NCBI GenBank assembly: GCA_026418905.1
Contig: JAOAAK010000040.1
Coordinates: forward strand, 1 to 38,268
Reading direction: 5' to 3'
Source of the DNA: Bacteroidales bacterium
GTDB taxonomy: Bacteria; Bacteroidota; Bacteroidia; Bacteroidales; DTU049
Length of the DNA: 38,268 nt
Shown: positions 26,175-35,575 of the stretch, piece after piece
How the letters are laid out: each line of letters opens with the position of its first letter
Numbering within the stretch: position 1 is the first letter of the stretch
Position numbers and translations under genes: made by a program
Notes under the pieces: model-generated
What the model was told of the DNA's origin: nothing
The model's database searches: none
What the model saw: the letters and a program-made list of their open reading frames with translations, nothing else

Positions 26175-26212
26175 CATAGGTAAAGAATAAAGAGATAGTT
26201 CTTTGAATTCAA

Positions 26213-26584
26213 GGGGCTGTATTGGTTTTGACAGCAGTAAGCAGGTAAGGTAAGCATGCCGGAGGCTGCACGCACACTCCGTAAAAATGGCGTGCGAAGA
26301 AAAATAAATGGCAACGACTACAATGTTGCATTGGCAGCTTAAGCGATAGCTTAAGGGCCAATAGTCTCCCGGAGAGGGTCGCCTGCTCTCGCTCCGATCG
26401 AGGCTTCGAAAAAAGTGGGCTCATCATGGCTTTCTCCCTGGGGTCATGATTAGAATCTACAGGGATAAGGTAGTCATAGGAAAGCTCTTTGCCAGTGACT
26501 ACCCGACAATCAAAGAAAGAGCTAAGCATGTAGAAAGCCTTATCGGCTTCTGTTTGGACGAGGGTTCGACTCCCTCCAGCTCCA
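26213..26584 (+). ncRNA. ssrA: tmRNA (transfer-messenger RNA)
   Basis: The 5' end GGGGCTG pairs with CAGCTCC at 26577-26583 as the acceptor stem (with one G-U), followed by discriminator A26584. The T-arm is GAGGG, loop TTCGACT, CCCTC (26560-26576). The tag reading frame begins at GGC 26310 and reads G-N-D-Y-N-V-A-L-A-A, ending in TAA at 26340-26342; the stop sits at the edge of the hairpin CTTAAG-CGATAG-CTTAAG, as is usual. The encoded CCA is missing: bases 26585-26587 are CAA, so CCA would be added by an enzyme. The tag releases ribosomes stalled on broken mRNAs, with SmpB, and targets peptides for proteolysis. The lipoprotein gene starts 18 bases downstream without a visible terminator. 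Confidence 0.97.
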
Positions 26585-26602
26585 CAAATCAAAATTCCAT
26601 TT

Positions 26603-26980
26603 ATGAAAAATTCATTTATTTTTTCGATTGGTTTTGTGTTATTTACAACTGTTTTTTTGACTTCATGCACTGAAGAAGAGCTAGCCATAACCAATGACAA
26701 TTGGGGAAAGTTAACCCTTTTTATCTATCCTAATAGTGGTCCTTCTGAAGAATGGTATTTCTCTACTGTAGGAAGCTCTGGCTTTGCTTCTCTTAAGGGT
26801 GTGGATGATTATCCTTTTGTCTACCAATACATTGATGCAGATGAATCTATTTTAACCTTCAACATCGGGACTTCTATTAAATACGAAATGACATGGACCG
26901 CCAATCTTAAAGGCAATTTCGTAAAATATGAAAACAATGTGAACAAAGGAAGCGGTACCTTTTCCATTGATAAAGATTGA
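26603..26980 (+). CDS. Small lipoprotein of unknown function
   Basis: The 125-residue protein has a lipoprotein signal peptide, MKNSFIFSIGFVLFTTVFLTSC, with the lipidated Cys at residue 22. The mature part (about 100 residues) is strand-rich (KLTLFIYPN, EEWYFSTVG, TSIKYEMTW, GSGTFSID) and might be a small beta-sandwich, but I do not recognise the family. It starts only 18 bases after the tmRNA 3' end, without promoter or terminator signals between, so it is likely part of the same primary transcript. A TTG 31 bases after its stop is not the start of the next gene; I prefer the ATG at 27012. Confidence 0.65.
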   Translation: MKNSFIFSIGFVLFTTVFLTSCTEEELAITNDNWGKLTLFIYPNSGPSEEWYFSTVGSSGFASLKGVDDYPFVYQYIDADESILTFNIGTSIKYEMTWTANLKGNFVKYENNVNKGSGTFSIDKD

Positions 26981-29855: not shown

Positions 29856-31775
29856 ATGAAATGCTCCTCTCTAATCGCTTTCGTAGTGATATTCTTTTCT
29901 GCTTTTGGACAAATTGATACCAATAAGTTATTAAAAGAAGTGATTGTCGACGCTGAAAGAGTCAAAGTTTCTCAATACACAGCTACACGATATATTCAGA
30001 TCATTACAGCAGATGAAATCAAGAAAATACCTAGTCTTTCAGTAACTGACATACTTGATTATGCTAATAACGTAGATATTAGAGAAAGAGGAATTTGGGG
30101 TGTCCAAGCGGACATTCAAATTCGGACGGGAAATTTTGAGCAAACTCTCGTATTACTCAACGGAATACCTCTTAACGATCCACAGACTGGCCATCATACA
30201 GGACATATTCCTGTTGATCCACAAATCATTGAAAGAATAGAAATTCTTACTGGTGCAGGAACTCGTATTTTTGGAATGAATGCTTATTCTGGAGTTATTA
30301 ACATCGTAACCAAAAAAGAAACCCAAGAAAAATTACTTTTACAGGTGCTAGGTGGAGACTTTAAAACTTTTCAGACAACTTTAACTTACTCTCCATATCA
30401 AAAAATCAAAGGTTTCCTTGCTAATTTTCATCATCGCCAGAGTAATGGATTCAAAGCAAATACGGATTACCGCATATCTCAAATATACTTTCAGTATCAT
30501 CAAAAAATAAGTAATGCTGGGGAGATTACTGGTTTTCTGATGAATGGTAACAAAAACTTTGGAGCATATAATTTTTACACTCCAAAATTCCCTCACCAAT
30601 TCGAGAACAACTGGCTTACGATGGCGGGTTTGACATACAAGAAACGTTTTCTTCACAGTGCATTGGTAAGTCAAGCTTATATACGCCGACATCAAGATAG
30701 ATTTGAACTTTTTCGTCATGACCTACCAGAACACATGATTCCTTCGTGGTATGTTACCCATAATTACCATCTTACGTATTCTTCCGGTCTTCAGAATTCC
30801 TATATTTATGTAAGATCTTTTGGAAAATTTTTTACCGGTCTTGATCTAAAGTACGAAACCATTTACAGTAATAAGTTGGGAACCATATCAGTTGATTCTA
30901 TCCCAACCATTTTTGATAATGGTTTCTATACTCGAAAAGGTGAACGCTGGTATATCTCTGTACCTTTTGATTTATTTGTTCAAATCAATAAACTTTCATT
31001 TTCAGCAGGAACCATAGTGACATACTATACTAACCAAGAAAAAGTATTCATTTTGCCTGGCTTCGATGTAAGTTATCAAATTGGGGAAAAACATCAATTT
31101 TTTGTATCCGCTAATATTAACGCACGGGTACCAAGTTTTACTGAAATGTACTACACGGATCCTGCACACACAGGAAATCCTGATTTATTACCAGAAAAAG
31201 GATATCAATTAGAATCAGGTTGGCATTGGTTTAGCAATCCGATTAAATTGCACTTAAATGCGTACTACCGAAACTGTTCTAACGCTATTGATTGGGTTCG
31301 CTCATCGGTTCAAGAAAAATGGCAAACTCAAAACATTACTAATATGCAAACTTATGGTCTGGAAGCAGATTTGATTTGGCTTGCAAATTTTAAATGGATT
31401 AAAAAAATCCAACTTTTTTATGCTTACAACGAATTGCTTCACTTTAAATCAGAATTTTTTTCAAAATATGCACTGGACTTTCTAAAACATAAAACAAAAA
31501 TTTCGATCGAACTCGATAATCAAAAAAAATGGAATGGCTCATTTTCCTTCATTTATCAGTATAGACAAAGCACATATCAAGATTATCCATCCGGAGAGTT
31601 AAAAAAATTCAAACCCGTATATCTTTTAAATGCAAAAGTTTCGTACAACTTAAGAAAAAACATTCTTTTGTTTACCTCAATTTATAATCTATTGAATCAA
31701 CATTCATTCGATTTTGGTCTTATTCCCCTACCCCCACGGTGGGCTATGCTAGGAATTAATGTAAGTATCCGATAA
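29856..31775 (+). CDS. TonB-dependent receptor, BtuB-like
   Basis: The 639-residue protein has a signal peptide (about 1-19, FFSAFGQ). A TonB-box-like LKEVIVDAERV follows (about 26-36), and then the plug domain: ITADEIKKIPSLSVTDILDYANNVDIRERG, LNGIPLNDPQTGHHTGHIPVD and IERIEILTGAGTRIFGMNAYSGVINIVTKK, the typical BtuB/CirA plug pattern. The barrel ends in WAMLGINVSIR, so the last residue is Arg instead of the usual aromatic residue. Barrel repeats with VNARVPSFTEMYYTDPAHTG-like loops (NPDLLPEKGYQLESG) match outer-membrane receptors for siderophores or cobalamin. It lacks the carboxypeptidase-like N-terminal extension of SusC-type receptors. The substrate cannot be named; cobalamin is possible but no B12 riboswitch is seen. 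Confidence 0.88.
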   Translation: MKCSSLIAFVVIFFSAFGQIDTNKLLKEVIVDAERVKVSQYTATRYIQIITADEIKKIPSLSVTDILDYANNVDIRERGIWGVQADIQIRTGNFEQTLVLLNGIPLNDPQTGHHTGHIPVDPQIIERIEILTGAGTRIFGMNAYSGVINIVTKKETQEKLLLQVLGGDFKTFQTTLTYSPYQKIKGFLANFHHRQSNGFKANTDYRISQIYFQYHQKISNAGEITGFLMNGNKNFGAYNFYTPKFPHQFENNWLTMAGLTYKKRFLHSALVSQAYIRRHQDRFELFRHDLPEHMIPSWYVTHNYHLTYSSGLQNSYIYVRSFGKFFTGLDLKYETIYSNKLGTISVDSIPTIFDNGFYTRKGERWYISVPFDLFVQINKLSFSAGTIVTYYTNQEKVFILPGFDVSYQIGEKHQFFVSANINARVPSFTEMYYTDPAHTGNPDLLPEKGYQLESGWHWFSNPIKLHLNAYYRNCSNAIDWVRSSVQEKWQTQNITNMQTYGLEADLIWLANFKWIKKIQLFYAYNELLHFKSEFFSKYALDFLKHKTKISIELDNQKKWNGSFSFIYQYRQSTYQDYPSGELKKFKPVYLLNAKVSYNLRKNILLFTSIYNLLNQHSFDFGLIPLPPRWAMLGINVSIR

Positions 31776-31781
31776 AATTAT

Positions 31782-31789
31782 TATTTTCG
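31782..31789 (+). promoter_or_regulatory. Imperfect -7 box TATTTTCG upstream of lpxD
   Basis: TATTTTCG differs from TAnnTTTG at one base and lies 6 bases before the ATG at 31796. It is a weaker promoter candidate for the lpxD-lpxC-fabZ block. Confidence 0.3.
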
Positions 31790-31795
31790 CAAAAA

Positions 31796-32806
31796 ATGTT
31801 AACAGTTGCAGAAATTGCCAAGATCATACAAGGTGAAATTTTTGGAGACGAAAACGTAGAAATAAAATCCATAGCCAAAATTGAAGAAGCAAAGCCAGGT
31901 GATATAACATTTCTAGGAAATAAACATTATGAAAAATATCTTTACACAACTCGTGCTTCAGCTATTATAGTCCCTAAAAGTTTTAAGCCAGATAAAGAGA
32001 TAGAAAATGTTTTAATTTTTGTTGATAACCCTTATCTTGCTTTTACTCAACTGCTCATATATCTACAACCTGCTAGTCAAGTTACGCCATACATATCACC
32101 AACTGCATTTATCCACGATAAAGCACATGTAGATCCCAGTTCTTATGTGGGGCATTTTACCATCATTGAGGAGGGAGCAAGGGTTGGTAAACATTGCATG
32201 ATTTATCCTCAAGTGTATATTGGTAAGAACGTCACGATTGGTGACCATGTTATATTGTATCCGGGCGTAAAGATATATAGTGAATGTCAGATTGGTAACA
32301 ATTGCATTATACATGCTGGTGCCGTGATTGGTGCTGATGGATTTGGTTTTTTACCTAACGAAAATGGAGAATACATAAAGATTCCTCAATTAGGCAATGT
32401 CATCATTGAAGACGATGTTGAAATCGGAGCAAATACGACTATCGATAGATCAACTCTTGGTTCAACCAAAATAGGCAAAGGAACAAAACTCGATAACCTT
32501 ATTCAGATTGGTCACAATGTGGAAATTGGTCAACACAATGTAATGGCAGCACAAGTTGGTATTGCTGGATCTACCAAAATTGGTAGCCATAATCAAATTG
32601 GGGGCCAAGTGGGAATAGCTGGTCACCTCAAAATAGGAAACAAATGTCAGATTGGTGCTCAAAGCGGAGTTATTAGAAATATAGAAGATGGCGAAATTGT
32701 AGTCGGAGCTCCCGCTATGCCTGCTAAAAAATTTTTCAAACTTCATGTGTTGTATTTGAAACTTGAAGAAATTTTTAAAAAGATTGAAGAGCTCGAAAAA
32801 AAATAA
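31796..32806 (+). CDS. lpxD: UDP-3-O-acylglucosamine N-acyltransferase
   Basis: The 336-residue protein has the LpxD N-terminal domain (MLTVAEIAKIIQGEIFGDENVEIKSI, then GDITFLGNKHYEKYLY) and a left-handed beta-helix built from hexapeptide repeats (VGKHCMIYPQVYIGKNVTIGD, IGAQSGVIRNIEDGEIVVG). The catalytic His is H240 in IQIGHNVEIG. The C-terminal helix ends EEIFKKIEELEKK. It adds the second acyl chain to UDP-acyl-glucosamine in lipid A synthesis. It is the first of three lipid A genes, 24 bases before lpxC. Length and motifs are normal for the family. Confidence 0.96.
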   Translation: MLTVAEIAKIIQGEIFGDENVEIKSIAKIEEAKPGDITFLGNKHYEKYLYTTRASAIIVPKSFKPDKEIENVLIFVDNPYLAFTQLLIYLQPASQVTPYISPTAFIHDKAHVDPSSYVGHFTIIEEGARVGKHCMIYPQVYIGKNVTIGDHVILYPGVKIYSECQIGNNCIIHAGAVIGADGFGFLPNENGEYIKIPQLGNVIIEDDVEIGANTTIDRSTLGSTKIGKGTKLDNLIQIGHNVEIGQHNVMAAQVGIAGSTKIGSHNQIGGQVGIAGHLKIGNKCQIGAQSGVIRNIEDGEIVVGAPAMPAKKFFKLHVLYLKLEEIFKKIEELEKK

Positions 32807-32811
32807 ATTTT

Positions 32812-32819
32812 TACTTTTG
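32812..32819 (+). promoter_or_regulatory. -7 box TACTTTTG upstream of lpxC
   Basis: TACTTTTG fits TAnnTTTG and lies 11 bases before the GTG at 32831 in the lpxD-lpxC gap. It may give lpxC-fabZ an internal promoter. Confidence 0.45.
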
Positions 32820-32830
32820 CAAAAAAATAG

Positions 32831-33760
32831 GTGAATCAACATACTTTAAGAAATTCTTTCTCAGTAGAAGGAAAGGGAATCCACACGGGGAAAAAAGCTT
32901 CGTTAACTGTTAATCCCGCACCTGAAAATACAGGTATTCTTTTTCAAAGAATGGATTTACCGTATCAACCTTTTCTTAAAGCAAATGTAAAATACGTAAA
33001 GGATACCAGCCGAGGAACCACCATCGGTAACGAAAATTTTGTAATTAGAACAGTAGAACATCTCCTTGCAGCACTAAAAGGTTGCCGAGTAGATAACGCT
33101 ATTATTCAGATCGACAATGAGGAAGTTCCAATCCTCGATGGAAGTTCAAGGCAATATGTCGAACTGATTCAAAAAGTGGGTCTATTGGAACAGCAATTCC
33201 CAAAGACCATTTATCATCTTAAAGAACCCATAGAATTTCATTTAGAAGAACAAAATGTTCATTACCTTTTAAAGCCATCTCAAAATTTTAGCATAGAAAC
33301 CACTATTTCTTACAATCATGGTAAGTTTTTATCTCAACAAATCACGATGCATTCCCTGGAAGATTTTTGTAAAACGTTTTATAATGCTAGAACATTTGCT
33401 TTTCTTTCCGAGATCAGACCCTTACTAGAAAAAAACCTAATTCGGGGAGGAGATCTTCAAAGTGCTATTGTTTTTGTGGACAAAAAGCTGAGTGAAGATG
33501 ATCTGAATTTTTTAAGACAAGTATTTCGTCAATACGATATCAATGTTTTATCCAATGGTGTACTTAACAATGTTAAACTTCTTTACGAAGACGAGCCTGT
33601 CAGACATAAAACTCTTGATATACTTGGTGATTTAGCACTTGTTGGTGTGGATTTTTGGGCAAGCATAAAAGCCATTCGTCCCAGTCATAAGCACAACGTT
33701 TATTTAGCAGGTTTAATCCAAAAACAAATTGAGAATTATTATGGAATTGAAATTGCCTGA
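32831..33760 (+). CDS. lpxC: UDP-3-O-acyl-N-acetylglucosamine deacetylase
   Basis: The 309-residue zinc enzyme begins at a GTG and has the LpxC opening QHTLRNSFSVEGKGIHTGKKAS. Zinc-site motifs are TVEHLLAAL (H77), ARTFAF and RHKTLDILGD (H259, D263); the catalytic His is H286 in SHKHN. It performs the first committed step of lipid A synthesis. In most Bacteroidota this gene is fused to fabZ, giving about 460 residues. Here the frame ends in IENYYGIEIA followed by TGA at 33758, and fabZ starts 20 bases upstream in the +1 frame. The frame in which fabZ is read has a stop at 33714, so any read-through shift must happen between 33717 and 33757. Confidence 0.95.
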   Translation: MNQHTLRNSFSVEGKGIHTGKKASLTVNPAPENTGILFQRMDLPYQPFLKANVKYVKDTSRGTTIGNENFVIRTVEHLLAALKGCRVDNAIIQIDNEEVPILDGSSRQYVELIQKVGLLEQQFPKTIYHLKEPIEFHLEEQNVHYLLKPSQNFSIETTISYNHGKFLSQQITMHSLEDFCKTFYNARTFAFLSEIRPLLEKNLIRGGDLQSAIVFVDKKLSEDDLNFLRQVFRQYDINVLSNGVLNNVKLLYEDEPVRHKTLDILGDLALVGVDFWASIKAIRPSHKHNVYLAGLIQKQIENYYGIEIA

Positions 33761-34223
33761 ATTTGATTTGTTTGCTAAGCCATTGTATACGGTGGAAGAT
33801 ATTCAAAAGTTTTTACCTCATCGACCTCCATTTCTCTTTGTTGACAAAATTCTTCAGATGAACGAAGAAGAAATTATCGGGGTCAAGAATGTTACGATGA
33901 ATGAATATTATTTCCAAGGTCATTTTCCAGGTGAACCTATCATGCCTGGTGTCGTTCAAATAGAAGCCATGGCTCAGGTAGGTGGGGTATTTATTCTTAG
34001 TCGTTATCCTGACCCCCAAAATTATACTCCATTTTTTATAAAAATTTTTGAAGTAAAATTCCGTCATAAAGTTGTTCCTGGAGATACATTGATTTTTTAC
34101 TTAAAATTAGCTTCACCCGTGCGAAGAGGTATTATTCACATGTATGGTAATTCATTCGTTGCTGGAAAATTGGTGACAGAAGCAGAAATGATGGCTCAGA
34201 TTGTGCGAAAACCCAATACTTAG
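33741..34223 (+). CDS. fabZ: 3-hydroxyacyl-ACP dehydratase FabZ
   Basis: I start at the ATG at 33741 (160 residues): MELKLPEFDLFAKPLYTVED. A TTG 12 bases upstream is also in frame. The hot-dog fold motifs are clear: LPHRPPFLFVDKI and the active-site helix FQGHFPGEPIMPGVVQIEAMAQ, with H61 and E75. It dehydrates 3-hydroxyacyl-ACP in fatty acid synthesis and influences the supply of acyl chains for lipid A. The first 15 residues resemble the linker between the LpxC and FabZ domains in fused proteins of the phylum. It overlaps lpxC by 20 bases and the convergent photolyase gene by 4 bases. lpxA, which usually follows in this phylum, is not in the window. Confidence 0.94.
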   Translation: MELKLPEFDLFAKPLYTVEDIQKFLPHRPPFLFVDKILQMNEEEIIGVKNVTMNEYYFQGHFPGEPIMPGVVQIEAMAQVGGVFILSRYPDPQNYTPFFIKIFEVKFRHKVVPGDTLIFYLKLASPVRRGIIHMYGNSFVAGKLVTEAEMMAQIVRKPNT

Positions 34224-35575
34224 AGTAAATTTATTTTGCGAACATAACTGTTCATGTCAAATTTTCTAGCTAAAGACTTTTCGCTCATGTATCTAATTTT
34301 CCCAAAAATGGCCCTTTCAGGCCACGGTTTATCAAATGCCCCAAAACACCACGCTATTGATGCATAGCCATTAGGGTCTCTTCCGTCAAGCTCATATTTA
34401 TCATTTAAATAACAACAAATATCAAATGCTATTTGGGGGGAAGTTGTCCATTCAATTATCTTTTTTGCCCAATACATACGCATGTAATTATGCATTTTAC
34501 CGGTTTTTAAAAGTTCCAATTGAGCAGCATTCCAGAAATTATCATGGGTTTTGGCATGTTCTAGTTCATCTAAGCTATAATTATAAGGTCTCTTATCGTT
34601 CATATGTAAAAGTAAAGTATCTTTTGACCAATTAGGTAAACCATTAAAATCATGATAATTTGAATTATACCAAACATAATTTCTTGCCAATTCACGCCAA
34701 ATGACAACTTCGTTGAAAAAACTTTTCCAGTTGGGATCATCTTCACCTGCCAAGTCTCGAAGTTGTTGTAAAATATCGAGTGGAGAAATGTTTCCAAAAT
34801 GCAAATACGGACTTAAGTTAGATTGCATTTCAAGAGATGGATCAGACCTTTTATCGTGATAATGATGGAAAGAAGACTCTTTAAAAATTTTTAATAATTT
34901 TTGGGCTACAGTTTCACCACCTACGAAGAATTGCTCTACGGTACTAATGGTTTTGTCAATTTTTAGCTCACGAAGATAATCTGCCGGCGTATCTAAATCC
35001 CACGAAGGAATATCAACAGAAGTTTTAATTGCTAAATCATAATAATCAAAGGCAATTCTATATAATGGTGGAAGTTTAGCTACCTTTTGTCTATACAAAT
35101 AAGCGTATGGAACTTTTTTGTTTGCCACCAATTCGATAGGATACACAACATCACTTTCAATCTCAACTACTGGTTGTTCGGCCATGCTTGCTATTTGTTT
35201 TCGCCAGTTTCGCTGTGCCTTTAGATAATTTCTATCTAAAACAACCATGCAAGCATGAGGAAGCAGTTTCGAGACAACGTCGGTATACTTTCCACGTATA
35301 ATATAAAAAGAGATTCCTCTTTGTCGTAATTTGTTTCTTACATCCAGTAACGACTCAATCAAAAAACGGTAATATCGTTGATTGCTGAAAGGATATACAT
35401 CGGTTAGTGAAAAAGCAACAACCAATGGTTTAGAGAGTAAATTAGCTTCTTTGATTGCATATTCCAATGCAAAATTAAAGGAGGCCCTAATTGAGGCCTC
35501 CATCATGTATAAAACATATTTTCCTTCTTTTGACGGTAGTCCTTTTTTTAAAAGATGAACTCTCCCTTCAAACAT
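34220..35575 (-). CDS. Class II CPD photolyase (deoxyribodipyrimidine photolyase)
   Basis: The 451-residue protein has class II photolyase features: an N-terminal Rossmann-like domain with RASFNFALEYAIKEA, then YLHFGNISPLDILQQL, LLKTGKMHNYMRMYWAKKIIEW, and near the end DGRDPNGYASIAWCFGAFDKPW followed by FGKIRYMS, which is the class II signature. It repairs cyclobutane pyrimidine dimers using FADH- and light in the cytoplasm. The ATG at 35575 overlaps the stop of the preceding lipoprotein gene by one base (TAATG on the - strand). Length and motifs fit the family. It is the last gene of a - strand run and its stop overlaps fabZ by 4 bases. Confidence 0.93.
   Translation of the reverse strand: MFEGRVHLLKKGLPSKEGKYVLYMMEASIRASFNFALEYAIKEANLLSKPLVVAFSLTDVYPFSNQRYYRFLIESLLDVRNKLRQRGISFYIIRGKYTDVVSKLLPHACMVVLDRNYLKAQRNWRKQIASMAEQPVVEIESDVVYPIELVANKKVPYAYLYRQKVAKLPPLYRIAFDYYDLAIKTSVDIPSWDLDTPADYLRELKIDKTISTVEQFFVGGETVAQKLLKIFKESSFHHYHDKRSDPSLEMQSNLSPYLHFGNISPLDILQQLRDLAGEDDPNWKSFFNEVVIWRELARNYVWYNSNYHDFNGLPNWSKDTLLLHMNDKRPYNYSLDELEHAKTHDNFWNAAQLELLKTGKMHNYMRMYWAKKIIEWTTSPQIAFDICCYLNDKYELDGRDPNGYASIAWCFGAFDKPWPERAIFGKIRYMSEKSLARKFDMNSYVRKINLL

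Follow-up and report, generated by a model that had tools for sequence, protein, structure and literature searches.

In the window, the stretch of 38,268 nucleotides from a Bacteroidales genome analyzed here, lpxC and fabZ are two overlapping genes in different frames. We consider it very likely that this arrangement results from an old fission of a fused gene and that it yields two ordinary enzymes, perhaps coupled in their translation. Judging by the sequences of relatives, the split is real, conserved and old, not recent. The fusion itself is already known; the split in three genera of one family, here denoted g1, g2 and g3, is a natural experiment of modest interest, accompanied by a slight and puzzling constraint on the overlap sequence.

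The lpxC/fabZ pair

The original prediction, according to which lpxC ends in TGA and fabZ starts in the +1 frame 20 nucleotides upstream, is correct in both coordinates and frame (Table 1). The interval that it proposed for any joining shift agrees with the fabZ frame being open back to 33717 (position 2387 of locus L002); in addition to the ATG, this frame contains a TTG further upstream, at 33729.

Table 1. Coordinates of the lpxC/fabZ pair and of other features of the window
Feature	Position	Strand	Details
lpxD, directly 5' of lpxC	31796..32806	+	TIGR01853, 378.6 bits (cut-off 242.5)
lpxC, UDP-3-O-acyl-GlcNAc deacetylase, free-standing	32831..33760	+	309 aa; GTG start; TGA stop at 33758-33760
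lpxC and fabZ frames both open	33717..33757	+	sole place for a joining +1 shift
lpxC/fabZ overlap, two frames	33741..33760	+	20 nt; fabZ frame +1 relative to lpxC
fabZ, 3-hydroxyacyl-ACP dehydratase	33741..34223	+	160 aa; ATG start at 33741
tmRNA	26213-26587	+	Rfam RF00023, 179.6 bits

Profile searches identified the two products as LpxC (PF03331, E=6e-82) and as a member of the FabA-like family (PF07977, E=1.8e-30). In the 464-position model of the fused protein, NF009667, residues 1-302 of LpxC align with positions 3-304 and residues 4-157 of FabZ with positions 309-462, whereas two generic FabZ models begin only at FabZ residue 17-18. The suggestion that the FabZ N-terminus resembles the linker of the fused proteins is thus supported, given that NF009667 covers FabZ from residue 4 and that the N-terminus of the g2 FabZ, PVSHINLSDKPLF, is similar to the fused linker PVSHLDLNKEPIY of locus L009 from g4, a fourth genus of the same family. 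The window proteins share the domains, their order and the linker with the fused LpxC-FabZ of Bacteroidota (NF009667 / PRK13188) but are encoded in two frames, with a stop after LpxC and a separate ATG for FabZ; taken alone, the two pieces fall short of the NF009667 cut-off of 465 bits (340.8 bits for LpxC and 234.1 bits for FabZ).

The source assembly spans 2.1 Mb in 47 contigs and is 97% complete; it contains one lpxC and one fabZ in total (E <= 0.001 with these queries). The order of the open reading frames on the plus strand is lpxD, lpxC, fabZ, and LpxD-like frames (named by eye) are also found 5' of the pair in the relatives displayed. A passage of PMC3087551 describes a lpxD-lpxC-fabZ-lpxA-lpxB cluster of separate genes in Cyanobacteria and Dictyoglomi, with which the window shares the lpxD-lpxC-fabZ order and the separate proteins. 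In contrast to the cluster described there, the separation in the window is most likely secondary, the fusion linker is attached to FabZ, the genes overlap by 20 nucleotides and lpxA is not found downstream.

Split and fused genes among the relatives

The family is represented by 12 genomes, including the source genome, among the 59 that were searched. The pair is split in all six genomes of g1 (one genome), g2 (one) and g3 (four), the source genome included, and fused in all six genomes of g4. The +1 frame and the position of the ATG are common to all six split pairs; the overlap comprises 20 nucleotides in five of them and 26 in the g2 genome (locus L004). Compared with the window proteins, those of the five split relatives are only 46-49% (LpxC) and 66-72% (FabZ) identical, which indicates that the split is old. 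Thus, of the "recent fission" in the original prediction, the fission is upheld by the linker kept on FabZ and by the junction lengths (see below), whereas its recency is contradicted by the presence of the split in three genera and by the divergence of LpxC. The comparison of close relatives that was then proposed as a check also goes against that prediction, in that separate genes with a stop are common to all six g1-g3 genomes.

The assertion that fusion is the rule in Bacteroidota is borne out by the wider sample. Among the 110 loci L002-L111, we found 102 fused genes, seven adjacent splits and one lpxC (L021) without fabZ in the fetched stretch; this sample is neither a census nor random, since resemblance to the split FabZ determined the choice of L032-L111 and kinship that of the other loci. 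PMC3087551, in the passage concerned, likewise gives the LpxC-FabZ fusion for Bacteroidetes, along with Chlorobi and Verrucomicrobia, and part of PMC516016 describes it in Chlorobium. Among titles in the open-licence literature, we found none on a split lpxC/fabZ in Bacteroidota. When the genome collection was queried with the alignment of split FabZ sequences, 80 loci were retained, 79 fused and one (L034) with a separate split; members of the g1-g3 clade were not found among these 80, from which records very near the window were possibly left out.

Two further adjacent splits within the phylum are built differently. In L034 (Bacteroidales MAG RS341_metabat.bin.19), lpxC and fabZ are separated by a TAA, a 5-nucleotide gap and an ATG (L034:2990-3001), and in L140 (G056:C233:17502-18879) by a TAA, a 7-nucleotide gap and an ATG, in both cases without overlap. 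The nearest row to L034, L044 (75% identical), is fused.

Several other arrangements were observed in the course of the survey. Twelve genomes of families f2, f101, f43, f9 and f4 encode a free-standing lpxC, and the stretch that was fetched holds no fabZ (L021, L131-L135, L137, L138, L141 and L143-L145); their best FabZ match is only 33-39% identical in seven of these genomes, and none was found in the other five. Genome G030 has two lpxC genes, in L146 (G030:C55) and L142 (G030:C92), one fused to fabZ and the other without fabZ in the fetched stretch. Two MAG records titled Klebsiella pneumoniae (L091) and Sphingobacterium thalpophilum (L107) contain fused genes with linkers like those of the Flavobacterium rows, and these titles look wrong.

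Origin of the split

The length of the junction was measured between two anchors, the conserved His in the [GS]HxxN motif of LpxC and the Pro in the PHR motif of FabZ, excluding loci that lack either gene and L083, in which an anchor was not found. The junction comprises 130 nucleotides (43 codons plus one nucleotide) in all six split copies. In the 104 fused copies measured, the linker ranges from 39 to 45 codons, with 129 nucleotides (43 codons) in 61 copies and 132 nucleotides (44 codons) in 28; in g4, it consists of 44 codons in five genomes and 45 in one. Because all six split junctions are one nucleotide longer than the commonest fused length, the split is most simply traced to the insertion of a single nucleotide into an ancestral fused gene.

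We propose that the fused gene split once, in the common ancestor of g1, g2 and g3, most simply when a 43-codon linker gained a nucleotide or, equally well, when a 44-codon linker, the length seen in g4, lost two. The LpxC stop now lies just beyond the LpxC domain, and FabZ would start at an ATG within what used to be linker, in the +1 frame, with the remainder of that linker forming its N-terminus. Both proteins would then be made separately from one mRNA, with fabZ translated either through coupling, by ribosomes that have just completed lpxC, or by newly recruited ribosomes. LpxC, which catalyzes the committed step in lipid A synthesis, and FabZ, which carries out the dehydration step of fatty-acid elongation, would keep their usual functions but act apart.

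In the more careful of two trees, with 29 rows and no outgroup, the six split pairs form one branch (support 96/93) and the 12 family rows form one set (100/98). L034 and L140 stand apart from the split six, implying at least three state changes, with three also in a quick tree of 59 rows; the placement of L140 is poorly supported in both trees. A topology in which g1 and g3 group apart from g2, as hinted by the overlap motif, is not the best tree, yet is not rejected (p-AU 0.255). The LpxC-FabZ row of the window has a very long end branch, 1.23 changes per column where the median is 0.30, and this lineage seems to be fast-evolving.

The same trees could be read to mean that the split was inherited from an ancestor in which the genes were never fused, g4 having fused them separately or gained the gene from elsewhere. 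This would accord with the midpoint root of the 29-row tree, which, without an outgroup, sets the split six opposite all other rows. However, the split FabZ bears a linker of the fused type, the split six belong with the fused g4 in the well-supported family set, and the fusion reports for Bacteroidetes, Chlorobi, Verrucomicrobia and Chlorobium cited above point the same way, so that we regard inheritance from a never-fused ancestor as very improbable. If the root lies outside the family, as the genome taxonomy implies, one fission suffices. The fused gene is therefore probably the older state, as suggested by parsimony, the linker, the place of the family within a mostly fused order, the genome taxonomy and the fusion reports, with trees that lack an outgroup. 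Under a fission, the LpxC-FabZ fusion described as typical for the phylum can be undone with the genes staying adjacent, and the fused g4 and the split g1-g3 within one family offer a natural comparison on the purpose of the fusion.

Conservation of the overlap and the possibility of a +1 frameshift

The stretch that begins one base ahead of the ATG and ends with the overlap has 21 sites, of which 20 are invariant in the five split genomes other than the g2 genome (L004), compared with 11 of 29 sites immediately preceding it and 13 of 30 immediately following it. Among FabZ codons 2-6, four of five are invariant, whereas other conserved residues have invariant codons in 12 of 80 cases (post hoc comparison, P about 0.002). 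This near-invariance is odd and exceeds what an idle overlap would need. None of the 60 possible single substitutions in the overlap leaves both proteins unchanged (38 alter both, 13 FabZ only and 9 LpxC only), so that dual coding alone could hold the overlap, provided that both protein tails matter.

One way to account for this constraint is that the overlap in g1 and g3 serves as a recoding site, at which a low-rate +1 shift would produce a minor LpxC-FabZ fusion with the common linker length beside the separate enzymes; in a milder form, the overlap would be held because the freed LpxC tail, YGIEI, has acquired another function, perhaps in turnover. We give this idea little credence; if it were true, the cell could tune fused against free LpxC. 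A programmed +1 frameshift in the overlap, as already raised in the original prediction, would go further, with the fusion accounting for part or all of the protein made. In its favor, a +1 shift across a junction of 43 codons plus one nucleotide would restore the commonest fused linker length, the overlap sites and FabZ codons are conserved in the five genomes, and five of the six split genomes use TGA as the stop. The g2 genome speaks against a recoding signal because it has the same split without the YGIEI tail and without the overlap motif, its overlap sequence differing past the first bases and its stop being TAA. Moreover, the FabZ ATG is at an identical place in all six split genomes, and the absence of doubly silent substitutions offers another source of constraint. 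In the common stretch, no codons slippery for +1 re-pairing were seen by eye, and the predicted RNA folding of two 100-nucleotide stretches of the window is ordinary (z 0.70 and 0.19 versus shuffles). Stimulatory RNA structure is not required in every known case of +1 frameshifting. On balance, we consider a programmed frameshift very improbable, a weak rival sustained by the near-invariant overlap.

A sequencing or assembly indel in a gene that is truly fused in the organism, which would fit a junction only one nucleotide of frame off a common fused length, is in practice excluded, because the identical frame change recurs at the same junction length in six genomes spanning three genera, every one of which has an ATG and a stop that match. 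For annotators, the frame change at lpxC/fabZ is accordingly real and not to be handled as an error.

Start and translation of fabZ

The six split FabZ sequences align without gaps from the ATG, whereas the in-frame stretch 5' of it varies from 9 to 72 nucleotides, and FabZ therefore most likely starts at this ATG. The closeness of the two genes is weakly suggestive of coupling of fabZ to lpxC. The overlap is kept in all six split genomes but is longer than the overlaps of -8, -4 or -1 nucleotides at which, according to the portion of PMC10666635 on this subject, coupling is efficient, long overlaps being typically uncoupled. The same portion states that long overlaps of the phase -8, -11, -14 and so on cannot shrink to -4 or -1; the lpxC/fabZ overlaps (-20 and -26) are in that phase, which would explain their persistence.

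The pair resembles the frame transitions that part of the GeneTack survey (PMC3711429) classes as coupling or fission, in that adjacent overlapping genes have fused homologues elsewhere. It differs from the sign of coupling given there, a start and stop within 10 nucleotides, in that the two are about 17 nucleotides apart; LpxC and FabZ have no occurrences in the main text of that survey. An internal promoter of the sigma-70 type for fabZ was also considered and rejected, with eight promoter-like sites on both strands of 31700-34400 versus 10.1 expected in shuffles.

Lipid A genes and other features of the window

Among the other lipid A genes, lpxB and lpxK are present in the source genome; of seven family genomes tested, lpxK is over the cut-off in all and lpxB in six, with a fragment in G005. 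A canonical lpxA above the TIGR01852 cut-off was not found in any of the family's 12 genomes, whether their lpxC/fabZ pair is split or fused (best about 94 bits, cut-off 231); 43 of the 59 genomes pass this cut-off, and the misses beyond the family are G012, G014, G021 and G029. The nearest LpxA-like match in the source genome (L153:1195-2133) is a second LpxD-type protein (TIGR01853, 261 bits), encoded beside an open reading frame that we take to be efp. The family may synthesize lipid A with no LpxA that can be recognized, or a stand-in may take its place.

Elsewhere in the window, fabZ overlaps tail to tail, by 4 nucleotides (34220-34223), with a photolyase-like gene on the minus strand (34220-35575) that scores 446 bits against TIGR00591, under the cut-off of 550. 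An open reading frame on the minus strand (26209-26700), with a putative product of 163 aa, overlies the tmRNA and is probably spurious.
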